In this document: one piece after another, positions 1-32,507 of the stretch
Layout: each line of letters begins with the position of its first letter
How positions within the stretch are numbered: position 1 is the first letter of the stretch
Source of the DNA: Acidobacteriota bacterium
GTDB lineage: Bacteria; Acidobacteriota; Terriglobia; Terriglobales; Acidobacteriaceae
Direction: 5' to 3'
Length of the DNA: 35,662 bases
NCBI GenBank assembly: GCA_021806005.1
Contig: JAJZDM010000032.1
Location: 1 to 35,662, forward strand
Notes under the pieces: model-generated
What the model was told of the DNA's origin: nothing
Databases searched by the model: none
What the model saw: only the letters and a program-made list of their open reading frames with translations
Position numbers and translations under genes: made by a program

Positions 1-1724
1 TTATCCCGAAGGCTAGCCGCGCCATGCCACACCAGTTGCAGCGATGAGAGGTCTTCCTCCAGCACGACCTTCATCTTGTACAGCCTCAGCGCGACCCCGC
101 CCTTGGCTGGGATCTGCCCTTGCACGCGCAGGGAAGAACCGCCTTCGAACGCCAGGTCTCTGTCATAGCTGATCGAGAGCGGCGCAGCGTACGCGGCCTT
201 GCGGTCAAACGAGCCGCTCTTCGGCTCCATCCACCACTGCCACGTCGGCAGGATGTCCTGGATGCCCATGTTGAACCAGGGAGTGTTGCTCACCCTCTCG
301 CCGGCCAGGAAGAAGGCGTTACCCGCTCCGGTATTGAAGTGCGAGACGAAGGGCGCAGCGCCGATGACGGAGCGCTCCGTAATGAAGTTCGCCACACCAT
401 AGGTGATCGGCAGTCGAATCTGGTCGCTGGAGCGGGTTGAGCCCGGCGTGTACTCCGAGTAGCGGCGCGTGCCCGCCGCTGTCGTCGCATAAATTTGGGC
501 CTGTGCCTCCGTAGGGGCGTTGTCGCGCGCAGGGTTTCCTGATTGCCCGCTGAAGAAGTGCCGTTCCAGCGAATAAAAGGCCTCCTCCGGCGATCCGGGC
601 CGGGCTGCACCCACCTCTGCCTGGAAGGCGGCCAGACCGTAGAGACCATCGTCCCAGCTATAGATCTGCAGCCCGCCATAGGCAAAGCCTCCGTTGGGTT
701 GAATCACAGAGGGTGCGGCCAGGCCCAGATAGCCGGGGCCGGGATAGAGCTGAAAGCCGAAAAAGGCCGAAGAGTCCGGCTTGAATCCGTGGGCAGTGCA
801 ATACTGAGCCACCGCCGCAGGTGACACTGGAACTCCGGAGCAGCAGCCGTGAGTCATCGTATAGCCGCTCCATCCCTGGTCCAGCATGGCGCTGTTGGCG
901 AACGAGCCTTCAGGCTGATTCGCTGGGCCTGAATCTCGCACCGGCAGCAGTTGTTCCATGTCCGAGGATCCATCGTAGAACTGGATGTAGAAGTCCATCT
1001 TGCCGAGACGTTTGGCCTCATCCCGCATGAGTCCGATCAGATCGAGCACCTGCTGGTGCTGAGCGGCCGTACCGTTCTCGAAGTTGACGAAGTAACCATC
1101 GAAGCCGAAGTAGAGGGCGAGGGATACAAGCTTGGCGGCGACAATCTGGCGCGGCGCCGTGCTCGCATCATAGAGGCGGTGGTCCGGCTGGAAGATGGTG
1201 CCCAGGCAAAGCGCGCCGTTGCGATGCGCGGCGTCGGTCATGGCGGGATTGGGAATCATGCCGGGTCCGCTCCAGTTGATCAGGATGTCGTGACACCCGA
1301 CCATGCGCGAGATGAAGACGCCATCCTGCGGAGACACTCCATAACGCTGTGTCTTGTAGGAGTCATCTGCCTTCGGGCCCAGGCTGCGGTAGCATCCGGT
1401 GAGGCTGGCAAGCTGTGGCTGAGCGCTCAGCCGCGGCTGAGCCTGGGTCGGCGCAAAAGGCAGGATGGTGGGCTGCCGAAGGACAAACGAACGGAAGTAG
1501 GCGCCATCGGGATCTTGCGCCGGCTCATAGGCGAGCAAGGCGGCAACGGGATCGGAGGTACGCGCCGTGAGGGGAAACCGCGGAAGCAGCGAATCAGAGC
1601 TGCTCCGCTCACCGGCATGGACGGCACGGGCAAAACGCAACCGCAGCAGCGCGGCCCCTGCAAGGAGCGAGAACTGTCGACGTGTCCAGAGGCCGGGAAG
1701 GATAGTTCGTTTGATTTCCTGCAA
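1..1724 (-). CDS. GH85 endo-beta-N-acetylglucosaminidase, Tat-exported, C-terminus cut by window edge
   Basis: Predicted to cleave the chitobiose core of N-glycans outside the cytoplasm. The 574 codons seen stay in one frame with no stop. The catalytic region contains FGFDGYFVNFENG (N214 and E216), matching the Asn-x-Glu pair of GH85, and further on PWFNMGIQDILPTWQWW, also typical of GH85. The N-terminus has a twin-arginine pattern (TRRQFSLLAGAALL), so Tat export is likely. The only workable start is TTG at 1724: an in-frame TGA lies just upstream, and AAAGGA at 1734-1739 sits 9 nt before the TTG. The frame was read by eye and checked at three places. The 3' end lies beyond base 1. No LacI-type operator like those of the 26-31 kb locus was seen upstream. 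The family call is fairly sure; the natural substrate is unknown. Confidence 0.85.
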   Translation of the reverse strand, partial: MQEIKRTILPGLWTRRQFSLLAGAALLRLRFARAVHAGERSSSDSLLPRFPLTARTSDPVAALLAYEPAQDPDGAYFRSFVLRQPTILPFAPTQAQPRLSAQPQLASLTGCYRSLGPKADDSYKTQRYGVSPQDGVFISRMVGCHDILINWSGPGMIPNPAMTDAAHRNGALCLGTIFQPDHRLYDASTAPRQIVAAKLVSLALYFGFDGYFVNFENGTAAQHQQVLDLIGLMRDEAKRLGKMDFYIQFYDGSSDMEQLLPVRDSGPANQPEGSFANSAMLDQGWSGYTMTHGCCSGVPVSPAAVAQYCTAHGFKPDSSAFFGFQLYPGPGYLGLAAPSVIQPNGGFAYGGLQIYSWDDGLYGLAAFQAEVGAARPGSPEEAFYSLERHFFSGQSGNPARDNAPTEAQAQIYATTAAGTRRYSEYTPGSTRSSDQIRLPITYGVANFITERSVIGAAPFVSHFNTGAGNAFFLAGERVSNTPWFNMGIQDILPTWQWWMEPKSGSFDRKAAYAAPLSISYDRDLAFEGGSSLRVQGQIPAKGGVALRLYKMKVVLEEDLSSLQLVWHGAASLRD

Positions 1725-4390: not shown

Positions 4391-5563
4391 GTGGCAAAGT
4401 CAGAATGCGGCAACGCCGAGCCCGCTCTTCGGGAGCCCGACGCCGCCCATGAGCTTCGCGAACCAGGCGAACCAAGGGCCGCGGCCGCACGCGTTCCCGC
4501 TGCGGCCCGTCGGGAGCCGAGCCGGAGCCGAGCGGCGCTGCCCGAGGACCACGACCTGGCCCCCACCGACCGCCACATGCTCGCCCACGACCGCATCAAA
4601 GGCCTGGCCCGCCGCACCTTCAATAAACACGTCCTGAGCGAGATCGGCGGCTTCTCCGGCCTGTTCTCCCTGGACTGCGAACGCTTTCCAGACCCGGTGA
4701 TGGTGGCCTCCACCGATGGAGTGGGCAGCAAGCTGGAGTTGGCCATCCAACTTGGCCTCCACTCCAGCATCGGTGCTGACCTGGTGAATCACTGCGTCAA
4801 TGACATCGCCATCCAGGGCGCGACGCCTCTGTTCTTTCTGGATTACTTTGCCACAGGCCTGCTGGATCCGGATGTGGTTCAGCAGGTGATCAGCGGCCTG
4901 GTGGACGCCTGCAAGGCCAACGGCTGCGCCCTGCTGGGCGGAGAGACCGCCGAAGCGCCCTGGCTCTATCGCGACCAGACCTACGAACTGGCCGGGTTTC
5001 TTACCGGCGCCGTCAGCCGCTCCCGCCTGCTCACCGGCGACGCGATCCGCGAAGGCGACTGCCTGCTCGGCCTCACCTCCAACGGCCTGCACACCACCGG
5101 ATACTCTTACGCGCTTCGACTGTTGCTGGGGACCGCACGCTACCGCCCCGAGCAGTACATCAACGAGATCGGCGACAAGGTGGGCGCTGCCCTGATGCGT
5201 CCGCATCGCAGCTACCTGGCCCCCATCCGCAAGCTGATTGAGGCGGAGACGGCCAGCGGCTTCTCCCACATCACCGGCGGAGGACTGACTGAGAACCTTC
5301 CCCGCATCCTTCCCCGCGGACTCTCGGCACAGATCGACCTCTCCTCCTGGGAGCCTCCGCCACTGTTTGCACACCTGCAACAGCTCGGCGGCCTGCAAAT
5401 GGACGAGATGCTGCGCACCTACAACATGGGCATCGGCTTGGTCGCCGTGATCCCGCCCGACCGGCTGAAGAAGGCGCAGCAGACGCTGAAGCGCATGAAC
5501 GAGCGTTCAATCGTACTGGGTCGCGTGATCCGCAGAGCTTCACCGCGCGTTGTCTATAGTTGA
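4391..5563 (+). CDS. purM: phosphoribosylformylglycinamidine cyclo-ligase (AIR synthase), divergent N-terminus
   Basis: ATP-dependent ring closure of FGAM to AIR, the fifth step of purine synthesis. Core PurM sequence is clear: [86 protein letters not shown] and YNMGIG. The expected N-terminal Y-x-DAGVD motif is not present; the matching place reads [21 protein letters not shown], after about 50 residues rich in Ala, Arg, Glu and Pro. No other frame restores the motif, so a simple frameshift does not explain it. I prefer GTG at 4391 because GAAGGTGG (4378-4385) lies 5 nt upstream; GTG at 4382 is possible. Family confidence is high. Whether it is the only or a fully active purM copy is open. 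Confidence 0.88.
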
Positions 5564-15243: not shown

Positions 15244-15280
15244 TATGCCTGAAAGCCCGGCCACAAGCAAGCAGCGCCTG

Positions 15281-15361
15281 AAACCTTCCCACGCCGGCAC
15301 GATCCGGATCGGGTTCAAAGGGTATCTCTCAGCCGTACACGCGGTAGGGCACCCCTGGTTC
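15281..15361 (-). ncRNA. TPP riboswitch aptamer (thi box) of thiC
   Basis: Reading the minus strand from 15361, the order is GAACC (P1 5' strand), AGGGGTGCC, a variable arm, GGCTGAGAGATACCCTTTGA, ACCCGATCCGGATCGTGCC, GGCGTGGGAAGGTT (P1 3' strand). These match the conserved core of the THI element: GGGGUGCC, CUGAGA, UACCCUUUGAACCUGAUC and the closing GGGA. It lies just upstream of thiC, the most common TPP riboswitch target. Thiamine pyrophosphate binding is expected to lower ThiC expression. Confidence 0.95.
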
Positions 15362-15370
15362 ACTACTGCG

Positions 15371-20408: not shown

Positions 20409-21479
20409 TCAGGCTCGAGAACGCTTCAGTGCCGGCCCGGTCGATTCACGGATCACCAGGGTCGGCTGCACCACCAGTTCCCCGCGAGGTGGCGTTGTGT
20501 CGTTGATCTTGTTCAACAGCGCCTGCGTTGCGATCCTGCCCATCTCCGCCAGGGGCTGCCTGATGGTGGTCAGGCGCGGTGAGCTGTAAGACGATGCATT
20601 CACGTCGTCGAAGCCGATGACCGAAACATCCTTCGGTACGCTCAGGTTCAGATCCTGAAACGCGCGTATCGATCCGAAAGCAGCAATATCGTTGAAGGCC
20701 ACCAGCGCCGAAAACGGACGCTTTGCGGCCATAAGCTGCTGCACAACCGGATAGCCCAGCTCAGGGGAAGACATGTCCCTGTCCAGCGTTACCACAAGCT
20801 CCGGCCTGATCTTCAGACCGAGCTTGCCGGCATATCGCTCCAGTTCCTTCCAGCGCACGTCGGAGTCAGAGCTGAACGGCTGCCCGCGCATGAAGGCGAT
20901 CTCCCGGTGCCCCAGTCCATACAGATGATCCAGCGTCAGCGCCGCCGCATGCGCATGGTCCAGCACAACATTCGTAATCCCTTCAAGCCGCCGATGGCCA
21001 GCCACCGTCACCGTTGGAATGGGCAACGGATGCTCGAGCAGCGTGTCGACGGCAATCAACCCCTGCGCTCCCCGGCCAACCAGCATTCGAATGTACTCTT
21101 CAATCATGTTCGGTTGATGGCGATGGTGCGCGGTCAGATAAAAATACCCGGCTCCAATCAACTGATCGCCGATTCCAGCCATGATCTGCGTGTGATAGCC
21201 CTCGCCAAGCTCCGGCACCAGGATGCCGACCGTGAGCGTGCGCTGGCTGCGCAGCGAGCGCGCCAGCAGATTTGGCTGGTAGTTCATCTCCCTCGCCGCG
21301 GCCTTGATCCGGTCGCGTGTGGCGGCCGAGATCGACCGGCCCGGCGCATTATTGAGCACGACCGAGACCGTGGACGGATCCAGATCCAGATGCGCAGCCA
21401 GTTGCTTCAGGCTGATCGGCTTGAAGCTCTTCATCTTTGAGCTCGACTTGCTTGCCTTGCTGTCCGGGCCGTCCATCAT
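20409..21479 (-). CDS. LacI-family transcriptional regulator of the glycan locus
   Basis: A repressor-type sugar-responsive regulator of about 356 residues. The DNA-binding part reads ISLKQLAAHLDLDPSTVSVVLNN...RSISAATRDRIKAAAREMNYQPNLLARSLRSQ, including the hinge helix whose leucine wedges into a central CG. The rest (from about residue 80) is a periplasmic-binding-protein fold with VGILVPELGEGYH, FSALVAFNDIAAFGSIRAFQ and VSVIGFDDVNASSYSSPRLTTIRQP. ATG at 21479 is chosen; ATG at 21434 would give a more usual LacI start. It is the only LacI gene here and sits at the edge of the receptor/GH30 cluster, whose promoters carry LacI-like CG-centred dyads. The ligand is unknown. It converges with ada with a 15-bp gap. 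Confidence 0.9.
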   Translation of the reverse strand: MMDGPDSKASKSSSKMKSFKPISLKQLAAHLDLDPSTVSVVLNNAPGRSISAATRDRIKAAAREMNYQPNLLARSLRSQRTLTVGILVPELGEGYHTQIMAGIGDQLIGAGYFYLTAHHRHQPNMIEEYIRMLVGRGAQGLIAVDTLLEHPLPIPTVTVAGHRRLEGITNVVLDHAHAAALTLDHLYGLGHREIAFMRGQPFSSDSDVRWKELERYAGKLGLKIRPELVVTLDRDMSSPELGYPVVQQLMAAKRPFSALVAFNDIAAFGSIRAFQDLNLSVPKDVSVIGFDDVNASSYSSPRLTTIRQPLAEMGRIATQALLNKINDTTPPRGELVVQPTLVIRESTGPALKRSRA

Positions 21480-21801
21480 CTCCGTATCCACCCTTGTGTG
21501 CCGTTGCACGATAGAGCACGTTGCCTGCAGCAGTAACGCGGGCCCTCAAGAGCTATGCGCGTTCTCCCCGCTGCCCGGACCCCCACGACGGTCCTGCCTG
21601 GCGCGGGGAGAAGACGACACCACCGCACTCCCCTCCTTGGCGCCCTGCAAACGGAAGCATGCTCCTGGCGAGATGCGATCGGTCTCTGTTGCGCCACCCC
21701 CCTCATGGCCGGCAACAGATGCAAAGCAACCCGCAGGATCTCAGATTTCATCTTCAGCATAACTCCGTGAAAGCCATGGATCCGCGGCCTGGGAGGCGGC
21801 A

Positions 21802-23016
21802 TCATTTACCTTTCTCCGGTTCATCATCACTGCGAATCTCCTGCGGCTTCACCAGCAGGTTCTGGAACACCACCCGGAGCTTGTCCTTCATCTCCTTGTA
21901 GTGCTTGAAGAGTTCCACCTGCTGCTTTGCCTGATCTTCATGGCCATTCCTGCGGTACAACATCGCCAGGCGGTAGTGCACTGTCGGGTTGGTCGGCTCC
22001 AGTTGCGCCGCCTCTTCCAGTAGCGGCAGAGCCTTTGCCTGCTCGCCTCGCTGGATCAGCACATTCGCCATCCCCAGACTGGCGTCCGGATCAGAAGGCT
22101 CCGCGGCCCTTGCCGCCCTGTAGTCGTCGAAGGCCTGCTGCAGATCACCCTTGCGCACGGCGACCTGCGCCAGACCACACAATGCCTTCGCGTCCTGAGG
22201 ATTGTCCGCCAGCGCCAGCTTGTACTCAGCGACCGATTCGGCCTTCATGGCCGGGTCAGCAGATGTCGCGAGCAGCTCAGCCAACTCCACATGAACGCTG
22301 GGCAGGTGGGGATCCAACGCAATGGCCTTCCGGTACTCCGCGATGGCGGCATTGGTATTGCCTTCCTTCAGTTCCTCATGCGCCAGCATCTGGTGTGTCT
22401 GCGCGGAGTTTGGCGCGGCCAGAGCCAGCGTCAGGCGCGCCTCTCCTGCGAGATCGGTGTACGTCTGGTAGGCCGCGTAAAGAACATGAGGATCTGCCGG
22501 CGCAATCTGCTTCAGCTTTGCGAGCACCGCAGCGGCGCGGTCCAGATCTCCGGTTGCCGTGTAGGAACTCACCATCTCCAGGCCTACCTGCACCTGGAAC
22601 TTCCGATCGTCCAGCACAGAGAACACCGTCTCCAGATCGGACCGTCCGTCGCTGATATCCCCGGTACGCAACTCTGCGATACCCAGAATGCCGCGTATCT
22701 TCGCCAGCGAAGGCTGCGCCTCCAGCGCGGTCCGCAAATGCGGAATGGCCTCTGCCGCCTTGCCTTGAAAAAAGAGCAGAACCCCCAGGTTGGCCTGCGT
22801 CTGGACATCTCCCGGCCGCAGCGCGGCGGCTGCTTCCAACTCCGGGATGGCCAGGTCTGGACGGCGCTCGTGAAGATACTCCTGCGCCAGGGCAACATGT
22901 GCGGCGTAGGTCGTCTGTTTGCCCCCAGCAACCTGGGCAAAACTTCGCGCCCACGGTGCAGGGGATAGCAGAAGAACGAGAACAGTCAGCCCGGCAAAGA
23001 CACGTCTGGACACCAT
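21802..23016 (-). CDS. secreted tetratricopeptide repeat protein
   Basis: A 404-residue protein with a signal peptide (MVSRRVFAGLTVLVLLLSPAPWARSFA) and then TPR units through most of its length. Clear repeats begin at about residues 40 (AQEYLHERRPDLAIPELEAAAALRPGD), 74, 215 (NTNAAIAEYRKAIALDPHLP), 255, 290 (GDLQQAFDDYRAARAAEPSDP), 322 and 356. The protein is likely periplasmic. It follows the TonB-dependent receptor gene on the same strand, separated by a terminator, so it may have its own promoter or receive read-through. Oar-like receptors of Acidobacteria are often near such TPR proteins; a role in handling or binding the imported glycan is inference. The ribosome binding site at ATG 23016 is weak. 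Confidence 0.85.
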   Translation of the reverse strand: MVSRRVFAGLTVLVLLLSPAPWARSFAQVAGGKQTTYAAHVALAQEYLHERRPDLAIPELEAAAALRPGDVQTQANLGVLLFFQGKAAEAIPHLRTALEAQPSLAKIRGILGIAELRTGDISDGRSDLETVFSVLDDRKFQVQVGLEMVSSYTATGDLDRAAAVLAKLKQIAPADPHVLYAAYQTYTDLAGEARLTLALAAPNSAQTHQMLAHEELKEGNTNAAIAEYRKAIALDPHLPSVHVELAELLATSADPAMKAESVAEYKLALADNPQDAKALCGLAQVAVRKGDLQQAFDDYRAARAAEPSDPDASLGMANVLIQRGEQAKALPLLEEAAQLEPTNPTVHYRLAMLYRRNGHEDQAKQQVELFKHYKEMKDKLRVVFQNLLVKPQEIRSDDEPEKGK

Positions 23017-23129: not shown

Positions 23130-26100
23130 TCAGAAGGTGACCTTCGCTCCGAGTTGCACGGTGCGCCCTCCCACAGTAGTTCCTGTGATCTGTTGTGGCG
23201 TGGCCGCATAGGAGTAGGGCTGGCCCGGTCCGGAGGCGCCGGCCAGCGTACCCGTCGGTTGACCAAAGCTCGGGTGGTTGAACGCGTTGGTGGCATCGAT
23301 ACGAAGCTGTACGGTCACTGGATCTCCCGCAACCGACATGGCGAACGATTTCGCTCCGGACATATTCACCTCGTTGATGCCGGGACCGTAGAGTGAGTTC
23401 CTCCGCACATTGCCGAAGGTGCCGTTCTCCGGCATGGTGAAAGCTGCCGGGTTATACCACTCGTTGGCGCAAGGCGCATTGACATAGGTACAGGTCGCAT
23501 GACGGCTTGTCGGCTTGGTACTGACGCCGGGGTTTCGGTTGGGGAACGGTGATCCAGCCTGCTGGTAGGTATTCTGGGTGCCGAAGACCGTAAACGGCTG
23601 GCCGCTCATCTCCACCACCGTGGTGGAGATCTGCCATCCGCCCACGATCTCATTGAGCAGAGCGCCCTTGTTCAGGAACTCCTGTCCATGCCCGAACGGA
23701 AGCTGGTAGACCACGTATGCCTTGAAAGCGTTGCGGACATCAAAGTTCGAATTGCTGTAGTTGGCCTGCAGATTATTCGCAATCTGATAGTTTTGCGGGC
23801 CCTCACGGCTGCCCCATCCCGAGGAGTCCTGATTGTCCAGCATGTGTGAAAGCACATAGTTGGCCGAGAAGCTGACGCCGTGCGTCATACGCTTGGTGAT
23901 GGAAAGCTGCACTGAGTTGTAGTTGCTGATGCCGTTGTTGGTACTTCCCGGAAGTCCCTGGAAGAGCGGATACGGTCGATCGCCGGCGGCGACATCATTG
24001 GATCCCAGTTCATTCGCTGGAATCGCATTGAGGTCCGTGGTGAAGATCAGGTTTGAGCCGTGACTGGCCACATAGGCCACCTGCGCCACAAAGTTTGTCA
24101 GAAACGCGCGCTGCACCGAGAGGTTCCATTCCATCATCCTCGGAACCGGCGTGTGGTACAGGATGAATCCACCGCTCTGTCCGTTGTAAGCCGTCGGACT
24201 GTTCGAAGCCTTGGTGTATGGCAAGGGCGTGGATGTTCCGAAGATGGTTCCGGGGCCATCCAGCTTGGTAATTGGCGTAATACCGTTGGTCTGGTCGGAG
24301 TCACTTCCTGCAGAACTGATGGCGGCTCCCATACCGTACGAACTGTTATTGCCCCCGTAGTTATCCAGGCTCCAGTTGTACGCATAGATACCGAACCCGC
24401 CCCGGACCGTGGTATTCCTCATCGGCGACCAGGAGGCACCCACGCGCGGCAGCCAGATGTTATACACCGGCGCAATCAGCGCGGTGCGGCCATTGGTGTG
24501 CGTGGTTCCGAACCACCAGGCTCCAGGCGTATTCAGCGCGCCGGTGTAGGGATTGGCGGCCGGATTGGGCACCGTGGCGTCGAAGCTCGCCTCGTTGCCG
24601 TGGATCTCCTTCCATCCCAGGTTGAACTGATAGCGCAGACCAAAGTCGAGCGTCAGGTTCGGGCGTATCTTGTAGTTGTCCTGCGCGAAAAACTGCGGGC
24701 TCTTGAAGCGCGCACCATACTCTGGAGAGAGATTGGCGTTCCAGTTCGACGAGTATCCCAACAGAAAGTCCGCATATTCCAGACCTGTGGTCGCGTCCGG
24801 ACACATCTGTCCCGCATAGGCATTCGGTCCGCAGGCCGCGTGATCCCACTCCTCCGTATACGCTCCGTCGAACCCCAGCGTCCCGGCGTCTTCGTTGCCC
24901 CAGGCGGTGGAGTCGTCCCGGTAGATAAGCATCTCGCCGCCGAACTTCAGAATGTGTTTGCCGTGGATCAGCGTGAGCACTTCTGAAGGATCGAAGACGT
25001 CTTCCTTATAGACCGCATTGGTGCTCGGCTGGATCCATGCATACGGGTAGTTGCGATAGAACTGGATCGCAGGAAAATCGTTCACCTTGGCAAACTGCCA
25101 TCCCAGTGTCGATGGATAGCCGTGGTTCAGCGACAGATCGGCAAAGAAGTTCAACTGATCCGTGAAACCCAAGACAAACTGGTTGGTCACATTCGGGCTT
25201 ATGGTCCAGAAGTCCTGCACGGCCGCGTTGTTATTGTCCACGTCGCCGGACTGCCACCCGATGGGGTACGCCGTGACAGAGTTCGGATACACCACCGGAG
25301 TATCGCTCTGGGTGTCTGACAGCGTCAGACGATTGCTCGGCGTGATGTCAAAGTCCAGGCGCCCGAAGTACTTGCGGTACGGTGTGGACTGCGGCACCGT
25401 GGAATAGAAGTTGTTCTGGATCTCCCCGTCCGCGCCTACCGAGCCGGGAACAAACTTGCCGCCTGCAATGTGGCTGCTGGGCGTAGGGTAGAACTGCTGG
25501 AAGTTCGACGCCACCTTATCAAACATGCTGGATGGGATGGCGTTCGACCCATACTCGCTCTGGAAGGACTGCCGGACGGGATACGGATTGCCCTTGGGAT
25601 CCAGAGCAATCGTCTGTGTGGTCGGATCGTAGATGGGGAGCTCGCCAGAGAAGTCTCCGCTCATCACCGCGGCGGTTGGGATCGAGTTCGTGGAGTTGCT
25701 CGCCGATCCATGGTCGACGATCTGATCGTAGCCGAAGAAGAAAAACATCTTGTGCTTCAGGTTCCAGATGGGAAGATCCACAGGCCCCCCGATGTTGCCG
25801 CCGGGGTTGTTATAGCGGATATACGGCACCGTTGGCTGACTGGCAAAGCCGTACTGCGCCGCATTGAAGCTGTTGTCCTGGTAAAACTCATACCCTTCGC
25901 CGTGGAAGTGGTTGGTTCCACCCTTGGAAATCTGGTTGATGATGGCTCCGCCGACGCTGTACTGCGCGTCGAAGGTCGACGCCTGCACGTCCACCTCGGC
26001 AACATCCTCAAAGATCGCCGGGTTGGCGTTCTGGCTGTGCGAAAGCGTCGTCGATGCGCCGTCCGCGGTGATGTTGTTATACGGAAGACTGCCGTTGAAC

Positions 26101-26642
26101 GAGACAGCCTGCCCAGGGTTTGAGGCTCCCTGACTTCCCCCCGGAACGCCCGTCGCGCCCGGCAGCAGGATCATGAAGTTCTCCCAGTCCTCGCCCACCT
26201 GCGGTAGCTGCTCCATCGACTTTGAACCCAGGATCGTCTTCTCTTCGCCCGACTCCGTGTCCAGCAGCGGCACGTTATCGGTCACCACCACCGTCTGCGT
26301 GACCTTGCCCAGCGCCAACTGCGCATTGATGGTCGTATAGCCCACTTCGATGGTCACCGGCCCGCGAACGTATTGGCTGAAACCTTGCTTCGTGAAGGTC
26401 AGCCGGTAATCTCCAATGACAATTCCATTGGTGTCGTACAGCCCTGCGGAGTTCGTCGTCAGCGTCTTGATAACGCCCGTATCGACATCCTGCACCTCGA
26501 CGGTGACGCCCGGCACCAGGGCGCCGGTGGAATCCGTCACGCTGCCGCGGATATCTCCGGAGTTGACAACCTGCGCCGCTCCTGCGGCCGCCGCTGTTGT
26601 CAGCAAAACAAGCGAAAAAAATCGCCACATCATTGATCTCAT
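23130..26642 (-). CDS. Oar-like TonB-dependent receptor with carboxypeptidase-regulatory-like domain
   Basis: Outer-membrane receptor and transporter of 1170 residues. Residues 1-23 form a signal peptide. Residues about 28-110 are a carboxypeptidase-regulatory-like domain (GDIRGSVTDSTGALVPGVTVEVQD...SAGLYDTNGIVIGDYRLTFTKQGF). A plug domain follows (about 115-250; KSMEQLPQVGEDWENFMILLPG), then a beta barrel rich in Asn, Tyr and Gly that ends VQLGAKVTF with the terminal Phe needed for outer-membrane assembly. This architecture is the acidobacterial Oar type. No SusD gene is near. Start ATG at 26642 has GAGGAGG 8 nt upstream. A LacI-like dyad (26763-26778) overlaps a TATAAG box upstream. The divergent GH30 gene suggests import of GH30 products. 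Confidence 0.93.
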   Translation of the reverse strand: MRSMMWRFFSLVLLTTAAAAGAAQVVNSGDIRGSVTDSTGALVPGVTVEVQDVDTGVIKTLTTNSAGLYDTNGIVIGDYRLTFTKQGFSQYVRGPVTIEVGYTTINAQLALGKVTQTVVVTDNVPLLDTESGEEKTILGSKSMEQLPQVGEDWENFMILLPGATGVPGGSQGASNPGQAVSFNGSLPYNNITADGASTTLSHSQNANPAIFEDVAEVDVQASTFDAQYSVGGAIINQISKGGTNHFHGEGYEFYQDNSFNAAQYGFASQPTVPYIRYNNPGGNIGGPVDLPIWNLKHKMFFFFGYDQIVDHGSASNSTNSIPTAAVMSGDFSGELPIYDPTTQTIALDPKGNPYPVRQSFQSEYGSNAIPSSMFDKVASNFQQFYPTPSSHIAGGKFVPGSVGADGEIQNNFYSTVPQSTPYRKYFGRLDFDITPSNRLTLSDTQSDTPVVYPNSVTAYPIGWQSGDVDNNNAAVQDFWTISPNVTNQFVLGFTDQLNFFADLSLNHGYPSTLGWQFAKVNDFPAIQFYRNYPYAWIQPSTNAVYKEDVFDPSEVLTLIHGKHILKFGGEMLIYRDDSTAWGNEDAGTLGFDGAYTEEWDHAACGPNAYAGQMCPDATTGLEYADFLLGYSSNWNANLSPEYGARFKSPQFFAQDNYKIRPNLTLDFGLRYQFNLGWKEIHGNEASFDATVPNPAANPYTGALNTPGAWWFGTTHTNGRTALIAPVYNIWLPRVGASWSPMRNTTVRGGFGIYAYNWSLDNYGGNNSSYGMGAAISSAGSDSDQTNGITPITKLDGPGTIFGTSTPLPYTKASNSPTAYNGQSGGFILYHTPVPRMMEWNLSVQRAFLTNFVAQVAYVASHGSNLIFTTDLNAIPANELGSNDVAAGDRPYPLFQGLPGSTNNGISNYNSVQLSITKRMTHGVSFSANYVLSHMLDNQDSSGWGSREGPQNYQIANNLQANYSNSNFDVRNAFKAYVVYQLPFGHGQEFLNKGALLNEIVGGWQISTTVVEMSGQPFTVFGTQNTYQQAGSPFPNRNPGVSTKPTSRHATCTYVNAPCANEWYNPAAFTMPENGTFGNVRRNSLYGPGINEVNMSGAKSFAMSVAGDPVTVQLRIDATNAFNHPSFGQPTGTLAGASGPGQPYSYAATPQQITGTTVGGRTVQLGAKVTF

Positions 26643-26762
26643 CTGCTCAACCTCCTCAAAACTTCACATTTGCGGGCAAGTCGGCCTGCGTTCGCAGGTC
26701 AGGTAAACGCCTCCAAGGCATGGTCCCCTGAGTCCGCAGGATGCTGCACCCATCGCATTCTT

Positions 26763-26778
26763 AGACAACCGTTTGTCT
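26763..26778. promoter_or_regulatory. LacI-like operator O1 (receptor promoter)
   Basis: AGACAACCGTTTGTCT: 6-bp arms AGACAA/TTGTCT around a CG-containing centre. It overlaps by 2 nt a TATAAG -10-like box on the minus strand (plus 26777-26782), the usual place for a repressor site. Confidence 0.75.
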
Positions 26779-26873
26779 TATAGACTTTTTCGATGCGGAA
26801 GCGATTAGAGCATACCGCGAAAGCAACTGTCAAGGATTGTTTCTTCCTGCTTCCTGTTAGGACCAGAGCCTCT

Positions 26874-26890
26874 AGACAATCGTATTGTCT
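26874..26890. promoter_or_regulatory. LacI-like operator O2 (middle of the divergent region)
   Basis: AGACAATCGTATTGTCT: 7-bp perfect arms AGACAAT/ATTGTCT around CGT. Its core is repeated over 13 nt in the promoter at 12786-12798. It does not overlap an obvious -10 box, so it may be an auxiliary site. Confidence 0.75.
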
Positions 26891-26974
26891 TGGCGTAGGC
26901 TGGCATCCATTCGCTGTTCCAGCGAGAGCTGCGCCGGGCCGTCTCACATCTCTGCGGCGCTTTGGGAATTCTAT

Positions 26975-26990
26975 ATGCAACCGTTTGTTC
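26975..26990. promoter_or_regulatory. LacI-like operator O3 (GH30 promoter)
   Basis: ATGCAACCGTTTGTTC shares 11 consecutive nt (CAACCGTTTGT) with O1. It overlaps a TATATG -10-like box (26972-26977) and ends 20 nt before the GTG of the GH30 gene. Confidence 0.65.
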
Positions 26991-27009
26991 TGAACCGAAA
27001 GGGATCAAA

Positions 27010-28437
27010 GTGAAAGGGAGCAACCCCACCCGCCGCTCTTTTTTGCAGAAGGCGGCCGGAGCCTCCGCCTGGTGCATGGGCCTGAACCGCACGGTCGCCT
27101 GGGCTGCGCCGGAACCAGAAGCCTCCGTGCGCGCCTGGGCCACCAGCGATACCCAGAAGCTTGCGGAGTTCCCAGTGGGTCCGTGGCGCGAGGGCCCCGG
27201 GCAATCCGGCGCTGCGATCCACCTAGACAGGACGACGTCCTACCAGAGTGTCCTCGGCTTCGGTGGCGCATTCACCGATGCATCCTGCTGGCTGTTCAGC
27301 CGTATGCCTGCCCCGCAACGCCAGGAGTTGCTGGAGGATCTCTTCGGTCCGAACGGTCTTCGTCTTTCCATGGGGCGAATCCCCATGGGCGCCAGCGACT
27401 ACTCTCGCTCGATCTACAGCTATGATGACTCCACCAGTCCAGATCCGGAACTCAAGCACTTCAGCATCGACCATGACCGCGAGTACATCCTGCCCACCTT
27501 GCAAGCGGCTGCGTCCATCAACCCCGAGATGTTTTACTTCTCCACACCCTGGAGCCCGCCAGGATGGATGAAGACCGGACGCTCGATGCTCGGCGGCTGT
27601 ATCCACAAAGACCACTTCCCCGCTTACGCACAGTACTTCGTGAAGTTCATCCAGGCCTACGGAGCCGCGGGCGTCCACGTCCGCGCCGTGACCAGCCAGA
27701 ACGAGGTTGATACCGATCAGGACGGACGAATGCCTGCCGCCGTCTGGGGCCAGGAGTACGAGACCGGCTTCGTGAGCCAGTTCCTCGGCCCTGCGTTTGA
27801 AGCAGCCGGCATCGACACCAGAATATGGATCCTTGACCATAACTACGACCTTTGGGGCCGCGTACTGGACGAACTCAGCGATCCGGCCGTCTCCCGTTAT
27901 GTCGAAGGCGTTGCATGGCACGGGTATCTCGGCAAACCCGACGCCATGACCCGCGTGCACGATGCTTTCCCTTCCAAGAGCGCTTACTGGACTGAGGGAG
28001 GTCCGGATATCACCGCGCCGGATTACGCCACGGACTGGGCAAGATGGGGCGGCACCTTTTGCGGCGTCTTCCGCAACTGGGCGCGCTGCGCTGTATCCTG
28101 GAATTTTTTGCTGGACCAGAACGGAGAACCCAACACCGGCCCCTTTCACTGCGGTGGCATGGTCACGCTGGATGCTCGCAGCCAGGAGATCCGCCGCAGC
28201 GGACAGTACTGGGCGCTTGGCCATTTCTCCCGGTACGTGCGGCGTGGGGCCAAGGTCATTGCCTCCACCGGGTCTCTGCCCGGTCTTGACCATGTCGCTT
28301 TTCTGAACCCGGACGGCAGTCGCGTCCTGGTGATCGCCAACTCCGGCGCTGCCAGCGAAGCCACCTGCGTAGCGGACAATCGCCATCTGAGCCTGTCGCT
28401 TCCAGCAAACTCCGTAGTGACGCTCCAGTGGGACTGA
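27010..28437 (+). CDS. GH30-family glycoside hydrolase, Tat-exported
   Basis: A retaining glycosidase of 475 residues. GH30 landmarks are GFGGAFTDASCWLF, GIPMGASDYSRSIYSYDD (written RIPMGAS in this protein), STPWSPPGWMKTGRSMLGG, the acid/base in TSQNEVD (E232), GVAWHGY and the nucleophile in WTEGGPD (E329). The domain ends with the usual small beta sandwich. GH30 members include glucosylceramidase, beta-1,6-glucanase and xylanase; I cannot fix the subfamily. The acid/base motif has Val where most GH30 have Pro (QNEP). The N-terminus NPTRRSFLQKAAGASAW is a Tat signal. Start GTG at 27010 has a GGGA ribosome binding site about 6 nt upstream. It is divergent from the receptor and convergent with the second GH30. 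Confidence 0.9.
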   Translation: MKGSNPTRRSFLQKAAGASAWCMGLNRTVAWAAPEPEASVRAWATSDTQKLAEFPVGPWREGPGQSGAAIHLDRTTSYQSVLGFGGAFTDASCWLFSRMPAPQRQELLEDLFGPNGLRLSMGRIPMGASDYSRSIYSYDDSTSPDPELKHFSIDHDREYILPTLQAAASINPEMFYFSTPWSPPGWMKTGRSMLGGCIHKDHFPAYAQYFVKFIQAYGAAGVHVRAVTSQNEVDTDQDGRMPAAVWGQEYETGFVSQFLGPAFEAAGIDTRIWILDHNYDLWGRVLDELSDPAVSRYVEGVAWHGYLGKPDAMTRVHDAFPSKSAYWTEGGPDITAPDYATDWARWGGTFCGVFRNWARCAVSWNFLLDQNGEPNTGPFHCGGMVTLDARSQEIRRSGQYWALGHFSRYVRRGAKVIASTGSLPGLDHVAFLNPDGSRVLVIANSGAASEATCVADNRHLSLSLPANSVVTLQWD

Positions 28438-28473
28438 TCGCCAACTGCCGATGACCACCTGCCGGCCGCACCG

Positions 28474-30435
28474 CTACTGGAACTGAAACCAGTTGAGATT
28501 TGCAAGGTTCTGGGTAGTGTCGCCGCCGCTGAAGACCATGTAAACAGTGTGCACACCGGAGACGTGGCCGACCGAACTGCTCACCGTCTGCCACTTCTGC
28601 CAGCCTCCGGTCACCGGCAGCGGGACGGTGGCAATCGGCGCCCCGGTCATGCTGTCCAGGTAGAACCTCACCGTTCCTCCATCGCCTCCGCTGGCGGTGC
28701 GCACCCTCACCTTGCTGATCGCGCCGGCCGCACCAAAGTCCACGTTCGGATAGCGCACCCACGCCCCGCTGGAGATGTACCCCAGATCGTACTCTCCGGT
28801 GAGATCCGAGGTGTCTTCTGTCGCTAACCCACTCTGCGCGCTGTAGCTCGATCCCTGGATCTGCGCTGTTGCGGCGATTCTGGACTGACCCTCCTGCTTT
28901 CCCGTCCAGGTAAACGTCGCCGCGCCCAGCGCCGGCAGGGTATACGCGAAGGCCTGCATCCCGCCCCACTGCACGTTGAGCCTCTGACTGGATCCGCTGT
29001 CATTGAATGCGACCAGGGCGATCGACCCGTCGGGGTTGAGAAATGCCGAGGTCGCAACCGAGGGAGTATTGCTGGAGTAGATCCGCACGGCGCCTGGGAG
29101 CACAAATCGGCTGAACTGTCCCAGGGTGTAGTACTCGATGTCATAGCTGACCGCACCGGTACGGCTGTTCACCGTGACCAGCGGCGTGCAGGTGTTGCAT
29201 CCGCCCAACCCGGCGTTCTGCGTAAGATCCGGACCCAGATTCTGGTCGAGCGCCAGGCTCCACTTCACGTAGGACTTGCCCGCATTGCGCAGTACCTGGG
29301 TGATCCCCAGAAGGTCCGAGGTGAACTGATCCTTCACCCAGGTGCCTCCCGAGAGCTCCGTCATCCAGTTGCCACTGTCCGGAAACAGGTTCGCGGTCTC
29401 CTGCTGCACTCCGGCTGTTCCGCCGTAGCCGTGCCACGCCGTGCCCGCCACCTGCATCCGCTGCTGCGCGTCCAACCGCTTGAGAATAGACTCCGGATCG
29501 TCCGGCTTGTCCCAGTTGTGGTCATAAACCAGCACTTTGGTGGCGACGTTCGCTGCCTTGAGCGCCGGGAGTACATACCCCTGCAGCAAAGCAAGCTGCG
29601 CGTCCGGGCTCATGCCCATGCTCGGGTACGCCGTGGTGACATTCAGCGGTTCGTTCTGCAGGGTGAGGTAGTCGATGGGAATGCCTGCCGCCTGATACGC
29701 CTGCAGGTAGCGCAGAAGATAGTTCGCGAACGCAGCCTCATTCGCACGGGTCATCAGCAGCTTCCCGCCAAGCATGGACACCGGGCTCATGGAGCCCGGG
29801 TCCTTCATCCATCCCGGCGGGCTCCACGGCGAGGCGAGAAGCTTCATCTGTGGATTCAGCCTCCTTGCCTCCAGAATGATCGGAAGTACGTCCGCCCGGT
29901 CGTGAGCGATCGAGAAGCCGGCCAGGCTCATGTCCGTTGTTCCGACTGGCTGGTCGTCGTAGGAGTACACCGAGCGGGCGATATCGCTCGCTGCTATCGG
30001 CGTGCGCATAAAGCTGAGTCCGATTCCTGTGCCGTTGCGCGTAAACAGATCGCTCATCGCCGCTGCCAACTGGCGTTTGTCGGCCACACGGTTCAACAGA
30101 TAAGCTGCCGAGTCCGTGAAGGCCGCGCCAAAGCCATCCACGATCTGATAGGTCTGCGTCGCATCGACCACAACCGTACTGCTCCCCGCCTCCCGGCTGC
30201 GGGTACGGAAGTAGATCGCCGGCTGTGCCTCCAGCAGATGGCTCTGGTCATGCGTACTGAGTGTCACTGACACCATCGTTCCGGCCGCCCGGTTGGATGT
30301 TGGCGCAGCAGCCGTCTGCTCGGCCGTCCCGGAGGATGGTCCGCTCGATTGGATCGTATTGCGTCCCGCCCCCAGACACACCACCATCACCATCGGGCTG
30401 AATATCGCAGCCAGCCTTGCGCTGCTGGTTCTCAT
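28474..30435 (-). CDS. GH30-family glycoside hydrolase with C-terminal CBM6-like domain
   Basis: A 653-residue secreted glycosidase. After an N-terminal hydrophobic segment (residues about 6-25; VMVVC does not fit a proper lipobox) and a Ser/Thr/Ala linker, the GH30 domain spans about 60-515. It has DGFGAAFTDSAAYLL, MRTPIAASDIARSVYSYDD, ASPWSPPGWMKDPGSM, the acid/base in LQNEPLN (E262), AWHGYGG and the nucleophile in MTELSGG (E360). Residues about 525-653 form a CBM6-like beta sandwich (SYSAQSGLATE...DLGYISSGAWVRYPNVDFG...W-x-K-W), which binds glycan chains. Start ATG at 30435 has GGAGGG about 6 nt upstream. A LacI-like dyad (30457-30473) overlaps its promoter. It ends 36 bp from the first GH30. 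Confidence 0.92.
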   Translation of the reverse strand: MRTSSARLAAIFSPMVMVVCLGAGRNTIQSSGPSSGTAEQTAAAPTSNRAAGTMVSVTLSTHDQSHLLEAQPAIYFRTRSREAGSSTVVVDATQTYQIVDGFGAAFTDSAAYLLNRVADKRQLAAAMSDLFTRNGTGIGLSFMRTPIAASDIARSVYSYDDQPVGTTDMSLAGFSIAHDRADVLPIILEARRLNPQMKLLASPWSPPGWMKDPGSMSPVSMLGGKLLMTRANEAAFANYLLRYLQAYQAAGIPIDYLTLQNEPLNVTTAYPSMGMSPDAQLALLQGYVLPALKAANVATKVLVYDHNWDKPDDPESILKRLDAQQRMQVAGTAWHGYGGTAGVQQETANLFPDSGNWMTELSGGTWVKDQFTSDLLGITQVLRNAGKSYVKWSLALDQNLGPDLTQNAGLGGCNTCTPLVTVNSRTGAVSYDIEYYTLGQFSRFVLPGAVRIYSSNTPSVATSAFLNPDGSIALVAFNDSGSSQRLNVQWGGMQAFAYTLPALGAATFTWTGKQEGQSRIAATAQIQGSSYSAQSGLATEDTSDLTGEYDLGYISSGAWVRYPNVDFGAAGAISKVRVRTASGGDGGTVRFYLDSMTGAPIATVPLPVTGGWQKWQTVSSSVGHVSGVHTVYMVFSGGDTTQNLANLNWFQFQ

Positions 30436-30456
30436 GACAATCCCTCCTGTACGGCG

Positions 30457-30473
30457 GAACAAACGCTTTGTCT
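30457..30473. promoter_or_regulatory. LacI-like operator O4 (promoter of the GH30-CBM6 gene)
   Basis: GAACAAACGCTTTGTCT matches the ACAA-nCGnn-TTGTCT pattern of O2 in the same 17-nt spacing. On the minus strand it directly follows a TGATAG -10-like box (plus 30472-30477). Confidence 0.68.
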
Positions 30474-30643
30474 ATCACCTTGATTGTGCCCGGCCATTAC
30501 ACCCTGAACCGCAGGACCTCGTCAAGAAGGAACTTCGCGATGTTACATTTCTCCGGGTTTCAACCTCCACTCGGAGCTCCGCATCGATTTTCCAGCCGCC
30601 TGACGGCAGCATCTTCACGCCTGCGATGTTCGTACTCCATCAT

Positions 30644-30659
30644 AGACAATCGACTGTCT
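30644..30659. promoter_or_regulatory. LacI-like operator O5 (upstream of the beta-helix gene)
   Basis: AGACAATCGACTGTCT: 5-bp perfect arms AGACA/TGTCT around a CG centre, following CATCAT. It lies 91 bp before the ATG of the beta-helix gene. Confidence 0.65.
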
Positions 30660-30749
30660 TCAGCAGTCTGGCGCAATCATGTCCGGCGAAATCGCTTGAC
30701 AGAGACTGCTCCGGACGTGCTGAATAAATGCGCGGCTTCTTGGATACCC

Positions 30750-32507
30750 ATGCCAAATCTTCGTTGGTCCTGCATGATCTTCTCTGCGTTGTTCTGGCTC
30801 ACGCTGGGACACGCCTTCATTGCCGGGGGAGAGCAGCCGAAAAACCCCTTCGGCCCGAACGTCCTTCTGCTGACCCCGGAGCGCAACTCCGCTTGGATGC
30901 AGGCTGAGGTGAACCGCATCTATGCGCAGCAGGAGCACAGTGAGTTCGGTGCGGGCCGTTACGCCATCCTCCTGCTGCCGGGTTCCTATCACCTGAACAT
31001 CCCGGTGGGCTTTTATACTCAGGTCCTCGGGCTGGGTCTCAGCCCGGACGCTGTGCGTGTCTCCGGCGACGTTCACGCCGATGCCTCCCTGCCGCACGAC
31101 AACGCCACCTGCACCTTCTGGCGCTCTGCTGAGGGCTTCACCGTTCTACCAGCAACGGGAACCATGCAGTGGGCCGTCTCGCAGGGGGTTGCGTTGCGCC
31201 GTATGCACATCGTGGGCAACCTGGTGCTCGACCAGAACCACGGCTGGGCCTCCGGCGGCTGGCTCTCGGACAGCGTCGTCGACGGCACAGTCGACTCCGG
31301 AACCCAGCAGCAGTGGATCTCGCGCAACGTCGATTGGAAGAGTTGGACCGGTTCAAACTGGAACATGGTCTTTGTCGGCGTGAATCATCCACCAGGCGGC
31401 GAATGGCCGCATCCGCCGTACACGGTGGTGGACACAGCCCCGGTGACCCGCGGGAAGCCGTTCCTGGCTTACGCCGCCAACTCCTGGGAGGTCATCATCC
31501 CAAAGCTTCGCCACAACAGCTCCGGTGCTGCGTGGCGCAACGGACATACCTCCGGCCGCAGCGTTCCGCTATCCCGGTTCTATGTGGCCCACGCGGACGC
31601 TGACACCTCCGCCACACTGAACGCCGCACTGGAACAGGGCAAGAATCTGCTGTTCACGCCCGGCATCTACAACCTGGCAACCCCGCTTCAGGTGAGGCGC
31701 AAGGACACCGTCCTCTTCGGCCTCGGCTTCGCCACGCTCCATCCCACAGCAGGCGGGCCCATCATGCAGATTGCAGACGTGGACGGCGTCACGGTCTCCG
31801 GGCTGCTCTTTGAAGCTGGTTCGGAGCGTTCACCATCTCTGCTTGATGTCGGCGCCCCTGGCCATCACCGGCGCCACGCCGCCGACCCCATCTCCCTGCA
31901 CGATGTCTTCTTCCGCGTGGGAGGAGCGACGCCTGGCAGCGTACACGCCAACCTGATCGTCAATGCTGACGACACCCTGATCGACGACACCTGGATATGG
32001 CGCGCAGACCACGGCATCGGCGTCGGCTGGAACCTGAATCGCAGCGACAACGGCCTGATCGTCAACGGCAATCACGTCACTGCCTATGGGCTCTTCGTCG
32101 AGCACCACCAGCAGTTCCAGACGCTTTGGAACGGTGAGTATGGCCGGGTCTACTTCTACCAGTCTGAGATACCCTATCGTCCTCCCGCACAGGATGCCTG
32201 GAAGAGTGCGCCGGACACGGACGGCTGGGCCTCCTACAAGGTCGCAGCGAGCGTGCGGCATCACCAGGCATGGGGCCTCGGCATCTACAGTGTCTTCTTC
32301 ACCCCAAACGTGATCCTCACCCGGGCAATCGAAGCCCCTGATGCCCCGGACGTGCGTCTCCACCACATGCTAACCACCGCCCTGGAACATAACGGTGAGA
32401 TCAAACACGTCATCAACAACACGGGCGCCGCCGCTCATCCCGAACCCGGCCGCAACACGCCCACCGTCGCCGAGTATCCCGCTCCGCAGCAGCCCGACCG
32501 TCCCTGA
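30750..32507 (+). CDS. secreted tandem beta-helix protein, probable glycan-active enzyme of unknown activity
   Basis: A 585-residue protein with a signal peptide (MPNLRWSCMIFSALFWLTLGHAF). It belongs to a family opening with NPFGPNVLLL-x-P, which I recall being labelled adenylyl cyclase or coagulation factor 5/8 protein in databases, without good reason. Two similar blocks are visible: residues 69-100 (GRYAILLLPGSYHLN...TQVLGLG) and about 295-330 (GKNLLFTPGIYNLA...TVLFGLG). Each looks like the start of a right-handed pectate-lyase-like beta helix, as in the two-helix GH55 glucanases. Conserved acidic and aromatic patches include DDTWIWRADHGIGVGWN and FVEHHQQFQTLWNGEYGRVYFYQSE. Start ATG 30750 follows from the signal peptide; no strong ribosome binding site. 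The operator-like site upstream ties it to the GH30 genes. Confidence 0.75.
   Translation: MPNLRWSCMIFSALFWLTLGHAFIAGGEQPKNPFGPNVLLLTPERNSAWMQAEVNRIYAQQEHSEFGAGRYAILLLPGSYHLNIPVGFYTQVLGLGLSPDAVRVSGDVHADASLPHDNATCTFWRSAEGFTVLPATGTMQWAVSQGVALRRMHIVGNLVLDQNHGWASGGWLSDSVVDGTVDSGTQQQWISRNVDWKSWTGSNWNMVFVGVNHPPGGEWPHPPYTVVDTAPVTRGKPFLAYAANSWEVIIPKLRHNSSGAAWRNGHTSGRSVPLSRFYVAHADADTSATLNAALEQGKNLLFTPGIYNLATPLQVRRKDTVLFGLGFATLHPTAGGPIMQIADVDGVTVSGLLFEAGSERSPSLLDVGAPGHHRRHAADPISLHDVFFRVGGATPGSVHANLIVNADDTLIDDTWIWRADHGIGVGWNLNRSDNGLIVNGNHVTAYGLFVEHHQQFQTLWNGEYGRVYFYQSEIPYRPPAQDAWKSAPDTDGWASYKVAASVRHHQAWGLGIYSVFFTPNVILTRAIEAPDAPDVRLHHMLTTALEHNGEIKHVINNTGAAAHPEPGRNTPTVAEYPAPQQPDRP

Follow-up and report, generated by a model that had tools for sequence, protein, structure and literature searches.

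Genes and dyads of the locus

The window analyzed here, 35,662 nucleotides of DNA, corresponds to contig C5 in an assembly of 4.16 Mb that comprises 212 contigs. It carries a gene for a TonB-dependent-receptor-like outer-membrane protein (23130–26642, minus strand; Pfam CarboxypepD_reg and OMP_b-brl_4) and one for an accompanying TPR protein (21802–23016, minus strand; Pfam TPR), whose homologue comes directly after that of the receptor at many loci of relatives. A LacI-family regulator is encoded at 20409–21509 (minus strand; probable start near 21479), giving the order receptor, TPR gene and LacI on one strand. The regulator was assigned to the LacI family based on its LacI helix-turn-helix (Pfam LacI, PF00356, 38.8 bits against a cut-off of 27) and its periplasmic-binding-protein-like sugar domain (Peripla_BP_3, PF13377, 119.2 bits), and it was aligned with the PurR, CcpA and LacI chains. 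A strong terminator-like hairpin (23101–23072, minus strand; 13 pairs, then a T run) was observed between the receptor and TPR genes, and no operator-like site with two or fewer mismatches was found within 700 bp 5' of the LacI gene. Given these two features, LacI may or may not be transcribed from the receptor promoter.

Three enzyme genes lie to the other side of the receptor: a GH30 enzyme with a Tat-type signal (27010–28437, plus strand), a GH30-CBM6 enzyme (28474–30435, minus strand), both recognized by Pfam, and a GH55-like beta-1,3-glucanase (30750–32507, plus strand). The best PDB relative of both GH30 proteins was BT3312 (5ngk; E 1e-57 and 4e-54, respectively, with 2wnw close for the former at 7e-56), and the catalytic Glu positions aligned; Asn244 of BT3312 was, by our own count, not kept. 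Both matched the NCBIfam model NF053856, endo-1,6-beta-glucanase (E 4e-72 and 4e-76), at 243.5 and 256.6 bits versus a cut-off of 700, and neither was therefore assigned as a GH30_3 endo-1,6-beta-glucanase. The CBM6 of the second enzyme was closest to 1w9s, which we take to be a beta-1,3-glucan binder. The third protein had no Pfam match and had been labeled a beta-helix protein in an earlier note on this DNA; that label had to be replaced, as residues 33–560 align with 4pew (E 1.8e-152), which is SacteLam55A of GH55, an enzyme for which the accessible part of the literature gives the roles of the catalytic-motif residues (PMC10637969). The similarity to SacteLam55A is full-length, and the VEH and FYQ-E--Y motifs, containing Glu-480/His-481 and Glu-502/Tyr-505, align between the two proteins, identifying a GH55 homologue. 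Based on this homologue, the GH30 proteins nearest BT3312 and the CBM6, a beta-1,3/1,6-glucan is the probable substrate, and we infer its exact linkage from these similarities.

Elsewhere in the window, a GH85-like enzyme is encoded at the edge (3–1724, minus strand), with no operator-like site of two or fewer mismatches nearby and one of three mismatches, devoid of a central CG, at 1813. A TPP riboswitch aptamer was also detected (15269–15366, minus strand; 67.7 bits).

The earlier note had described five dyads around these genes, sharing an ACAA-n-CG-n-TTGT pattern, and all five were found where it had placed them (S3 at 26976–26991); none is assigned a strand. S1, AGACAACCGTTTGTCT (26763–26778), is a candidate operator 120 bp before the receptor start, and S2, AGACAATCGTATTGTCT (26874–26890), is a 17-bp candidate operator in the middle of the divergent receptor/GH30 region. 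S3, ATGCAACCGTTTGTTC, is a weak operator-like site 18 nt 5' of the GH30 start; S4, GAACAAACGCTTTGTCT (30457–30473), is a 17-bp operator-like site 21 nt 5' of the GH30-CBM6 start; and S5, AGACAATCGACTGTCT (30644–30659), is a candidate operator 90 bp 5' of the GH55-like gene. All five are intergenic, as had been proposed, given the starts GTG 27010 (GH30), ATG 30435 (GH30-CBM6) and ATG 30750 (GH55-like gene), which were chosen from Shine-Dalgarno (SD), Tat and signal sequences.

The dyads proved to be related, but to come in two lengths (16 and 17 bp) rather than to follow one strict pattern. Scanning of the 4.16-Mb genome showed S1 to be its sole exact AGACAAN4TTGTCT and S2 its sole exact AGACAAN5TTGTCT, each with perfect arms, and relative to these arms S5 had one mismatch and S4 two. 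The strict pattern ACAANCGNTTGT fitted S1 alone among the five, S2 and S4 shared the 13-mer ACAANCGNNTTGT, and S3 and S5 each had one arm base broken. Allowing at most one mismatch and a spacer of 4 or 5, the window contained three such sites (S1, S2 and S5) versus 0.055 expected under a first-order Markov model (Poisson P ~3e-5). Looping among S1, S2 and S3 was considered and set aside: measured between centres, the sites are 111.5 and 101.5 bp apart, or 10.62 and 9.67 turns, and we do not claim phasing. The proposal that the dyads follow or overlap -10 boxes was not borne out, as sigma70 scans returned no sigma70-type promoter in 26640–27010 or 30430–30760, and in a check of flank composition TATAGACAA flanked three of the 45 exact sites found in the family (see below).

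Sites elsewhere in the genome

Genome-wide, the arms at two or fewer mismatches were not above their backward control, with 39 places versus 70 for spacer 4 and 77 versus 89 for spacer 5. The loose pattern alone therefore proves nothing, and the case for S3 and S4 rests on their position and, for S3, also on its conservation. A central CG was present in seven of the 39 spacer-4 places. Four of these seven (on contigs C19, C126, C176 and C206) lie inside ORFs of at least 222 aa, and the three that are intergenic precede the receptor gene (S1), the GH55-like gene (S5) and a third GH30 gene on contig C116, whose ORF starts 65 bp downstream of the site. The pattern RDACAANCGNTTGTHY, which was drawn after the S1 and C116 sites had been seen, matched these two sites only, with none in the control. 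The genome scan thus agrees with the proposal of a glycan regulon, in that the best 16-bp sites precede glycan genes, including one on another contig.

A Pfam search identified four GH30 matches in the genome, namely the two in the window and those on C116 and C172. The promoter is in view for three of them, each of which has a site, and the remaining one (C172) starts at the end of its contig. C172 opens inside a GH30 gene that closely resembles the one truncated where C116 ends, and the two could be opposite ends of a single gene or a pair of near-identical copies. The 13-mer ACAANCGNNTTGT occurred at eight places (backward control, none), comprising S2, S4, four places in ORFs and two others, C5:12440 and C82:30383, which are apparently between genes and beside which no glycan gene was recognized.

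Conservation among Acidobacteriaceae

To place the dyads in a wider context, 300 Acidobacteriaceae genomes were surveyed. The pattern AGACAANCGNTTGTCT, an even palindrome with a central CG as is usual for LacI operators (from which S2 and S4, at 17 bp, depart in being odd), occurred 45 times in 33 of these genomes, and its backward pattern twice. A LacI match at E<=1e-70 was present in 208 genomes and lacking in 92, and such a match was found in 31 of the 33 genomes that carry a site (Fisher P 5e-4); the two that did not (G190 and G213) have sites that are not beside glycan genes. The exact site was absent from 177 of the 208 genomes with a match, a figure obtained with a cut-off that takes in paralogues.

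Around the 44 exact sites outside the window's genome we took 39 stretches of 8 to 20 kb. Counting as neighbours those genes whose ORF starts within about 600 bp of the site, and with the classes assigned by hand, we found a receptor, GH30, GH3, GH5, GH55 or LacI gene next to 39 of the 44 sites (for instance, a GH3 gene beside the site at 7864 of L143) and a ThuA gene next to one. The remaining four have no such neighbour; those of L134 and L140 are located in unrelated ORFs, and two of the four are the sites of G190 and G213. The 44 sites are not all independent, since sister genomes are among them (for example, L142 and L143 have GH3 proteins with 97% identity). A LacI gene was present in the stretch for 20 of the 44 sites versus about 4% expected on the assumption of ten LacI genes per genome; the number of LacI-family genes was 2 to 15 in 20 of 21 genomes.

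The sites were also enriched directly before relatives of the regulator. After duplicates L035 and L036 and stretches of fewer than 500 bases had been dropped, the best CG-centred site with at most two mismatches lay upstream of 11 of 42 LacI relatives and downstream of one of 42. Among relatives with at least 55% identity and at most one mismatch, spacer 4 gave 13 sites and each other spacer from 0 to 10 gave none or one. For the remaining 31 of the 42 no site with two or fewer mismatches was present within 700 bp upstream, which, together with the same result for the window's own LacI, indicates that autoregulation is not universal.

The nearest named relatives by LacI identity were a Granulicella MAG and Acidobacteriaceae MAGs. 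The LacI of the Granulicella locus (L035) is 84% identical to that of the window, and its counterparts of S1, S2 and S3 are identical at 15/16, 16/17 and 14/16 positions (45/49 in total) and lie within conserved blocks, versus 177/312 for the rest of the intergenic region. A further operator-like site was seen at 4745–4760 of L035, in a receptor/GH30 intergenic stretch without a counterpart in the window. At the loci of more remote relatives, the 16-bp form is found between LacI and a divergent receptor gene (L009, L017, L022 and L027) or before GH30 genes, and homologues of the GH55-like gene have a site in G174 (L151) and G066 (L234). Motif conservation in relatives that keep this LacI, which the earlier note had put forward as a check, is thus present, in many cases in the region that separates LacI from the receptor.

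A search of six relatives at one mismatch or fewer gave 19 sites versus two in the control (in G116 alone, two versus two). Of the 19, 16 were inspected, and 12 adjoin receptor, GH30, GH55-like or LacI genes, with two of the others in ORFs and two beside other genes. The GH55-like gene of G066 and a GH30 gene of G202 have their sites on contigs other than that of LacI. In L235, a one-mismatch site (1501–1516) is located inside an ORF for a sugar-transporter-family protein.

The 17-bp form was rejected as a family-wide motif because, at 14 sites versus 12 in the control, it was not enriched, and S2 and S4 may consequently be a local feature, confined to this species and those nearest to it. One alternative reading is that S3, S4 and the 17-bp forms in general are non-functional and that 16-bp sites, for example S1 and S5, are the sole ones to act. 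The control-level count of exact 17-bp sites, the several mismatches in S3 and S4, and the lack of any 17-bp site with at most one mismatch upstream of the LacI relatives all speak for this reading. Against it, S2 is perfect and conserved in L035, where the core of S3 is conserved as well, a 17-bp site with one mismatch precedes the receptor gene of L036, and S4 is at the start of a GH30 gene. On balance we regard such a restriction to the 16-bp sites as possible but less likely than not.

The regulator and its proposed regulon

In the window's LacI the recognition helix is LDPSTVSVVLN, which places Val at AA-20; NT-6 of the operator half AGACAAnC is A. In the LacI family, Arg at AA-20 has been tied to G at operator NT-6, and the corresponding TVSR helix was present in 1490 of 2639 LacI domains, according to the part of the report by Camas et al. 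(2010, PMC2978694) available to us. With Val and A at these positions, the protein and sites studied here fall outside the TVSR subgroup. LacI relatives beside the sites mostly have Val or Phe at AA-20, and all 20 of the site stretches with a LacI gene have at least one LacI with Val, Phe, Tyr or Leu there. The pairing of Val with A is, from these sequences, consistent with this LacI being the binder.

We compared AA-20 and NT-6 across 90 LacI helices (L051–L089 left out). Some upstream palindrome was found for 15/42 Val, 6/29 Arg, 5/7 Phe and 2/3 Ala helices and for none of nine with Leu, Lys, Pro, Tyr, Ile or His, in a noisy comparison with many chance-like palindromes. With the same noise and chance-like palindromes, the best palindrome had A at NT-6 in 6/15 Val, 2/6 Arg, 5/5 Phe and 2/2 Ala cases, and G in 4/6 of the Arg class. 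Three loci (L046, L048 and L049), whose LacI proteins are 46–48% identical to that of the window and have a TVSA helix with Ala at AA-20, share an upstream near-palindrome, AAAATAACG-WTWTTCT, which is possibly a second operator class.

The regulator had been described as the only LacI-family gene in view, which holds for the window, whereas the genome contains nine further LacI-family matches. One of these paralogues could in principle be the protein that binds the dyads, the more so as L169 has Phe at AA-20, like many LacI proteins beside the relatives' sites, and a TVSR-type LacI is also beside a site in L136 and L137. However, none of the nine has the recognition helix of the window's LacI or the P-[AS]-T-[VI]-S-[VF]-V-L helix seen repeatedly next to the sites of relatives, the best is 45% identical, and none is encoded inside the window, and we therefore consider binding by a paralogue improbable. 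Regulators of the TetR or GntR type have sites that can resemble these dyads, and AGAC/GTCT half-sites, as found here, occur in TetR-type operators. A regulator of either family is still less credible as the binder: the consulted part of Ravcheev et al. (PMC4052901) describes sites of more than one spacing as rare within a LacI group, but the same source gives a CG centre and even spacing as typical of LacI operators, and LacI relatives recur near the sites, often divergent from the receptor gene with the sites between them.

We consider it highly probable that the window's LacI represses the receptor, GH30 and GH55 genes through the dyads, and that a beta-glucan oligosaccharide induces uptake and hydrolysis together. 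A dimer of LacI (20409–21509) would bind the AGACAAnCGnTTGTCT dyads (16 bp, with the 17-bp form at S2 and S4) at the promoters of the receptor, the two GH30 enzymes, the GH55-like enzyme and at least one further GH30 elsewhere in the genome, and would repress these genes when substrate is absent. A beta-1,3/1,6-glucan oligosaccharide, probably from fungal cell walls, would then bind the periplasmic-binding-protein-like domain, LacI would release the DNA, and the uptake and hydrolysis genes would be induced together. The sites, their conservation and their link to LacI and glycan genes are computed results; what we infer is that this LacI is the binder and that it represses and does not activate, as well as the identities of inducer and substrate. 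The suggestion of one repressor controlling uptake and hydrolysis, as made from the window, fits the conservation near LacI and receptor genes and the sites before glycan genes. A broader proposal has in our judgment about an even chance of being correct, namely that an Acidobacteriaceae LacI clade with a hydrophobic AA-20 and a G-to-A change at operator NT-6 (AGACAAnCGnTTGTCT) runs a scattered, trans-acting fungal beta-glucan regulon (receptor, GH30, GH55, GH3 and GH5), in the role that SusR/HTCS regulators have in Bacteroidota.

Acidobacteria are abundant in soil, and the target genes would point to the use of fungal cell-wall glucan. A named operator is a handle for predicting the genes that answer to the same sugar in many genomes, and the operator/helix pair is a natural case on which to test the LacI recognition code beyond proteins of the Arg type. 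Among the matches listed in our literature searches, in which titles and abstracts were considered and most subscription papers were outside the scope, no description of this operator signal with this gene set was found, nor, in titles and abstracts of the matches listed, an operator-level account of the control of acidobacterial glycan uptake.

The kind of switch, a LacI-type sugar regulon, is well known, and the regulon is of an ordinary kind with a little-studied recognition helix. As far as the available text of Ravcheev et al. (2014, PMC4052901) goes, LacI regulons have palindromic operators of 16–22 nt, mostly even and with a central CG; like them, the sites described here are upstream of sugar-utilisation genes and include tandem sites, and those regulons are often autoregulated. 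The present locus differs from the ones in that text in having 16- and 17-bp sites together and in its targets, which include GH30 and GH55 enzymes and a TonB-dependent receptor, and the string "Acidobacter" does not appear in the main text of that paper. The DNA-binding fold is shared with the TVSR-type LacI proteins, and their NT-6-reading helix position has an alignable equivalent here; in place of their Arg at AA-20 and G at NT-6 (PMC2978694, in the part available), Val, or Phe in other relatives, is found with A. Another close system in the portion of the literature available to us is the 1,6-beta-glucan PUL of B. thetaiotaomicron (BT3309–BT3314), for which fungal 1,6-beta-glucan is the inducer (Temple et al. 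2017, PMC5481569). That PUL has a SusR-type regulator and a SusCD pair, whereas here the regulator is LacI-type, a GH55-like enzyme is present and none of the window proteins scanned gave a SusD-like match. In both, to the extent covered by that source, an outer-membrane transporter is accompanied by a GH30 enzyme (a GH30_3 endo-1,6-beta-glucanase in the PUL), and the GH3 enzyme of the PUL has its counterpart in the GH3 genes beside the sites in relatives.
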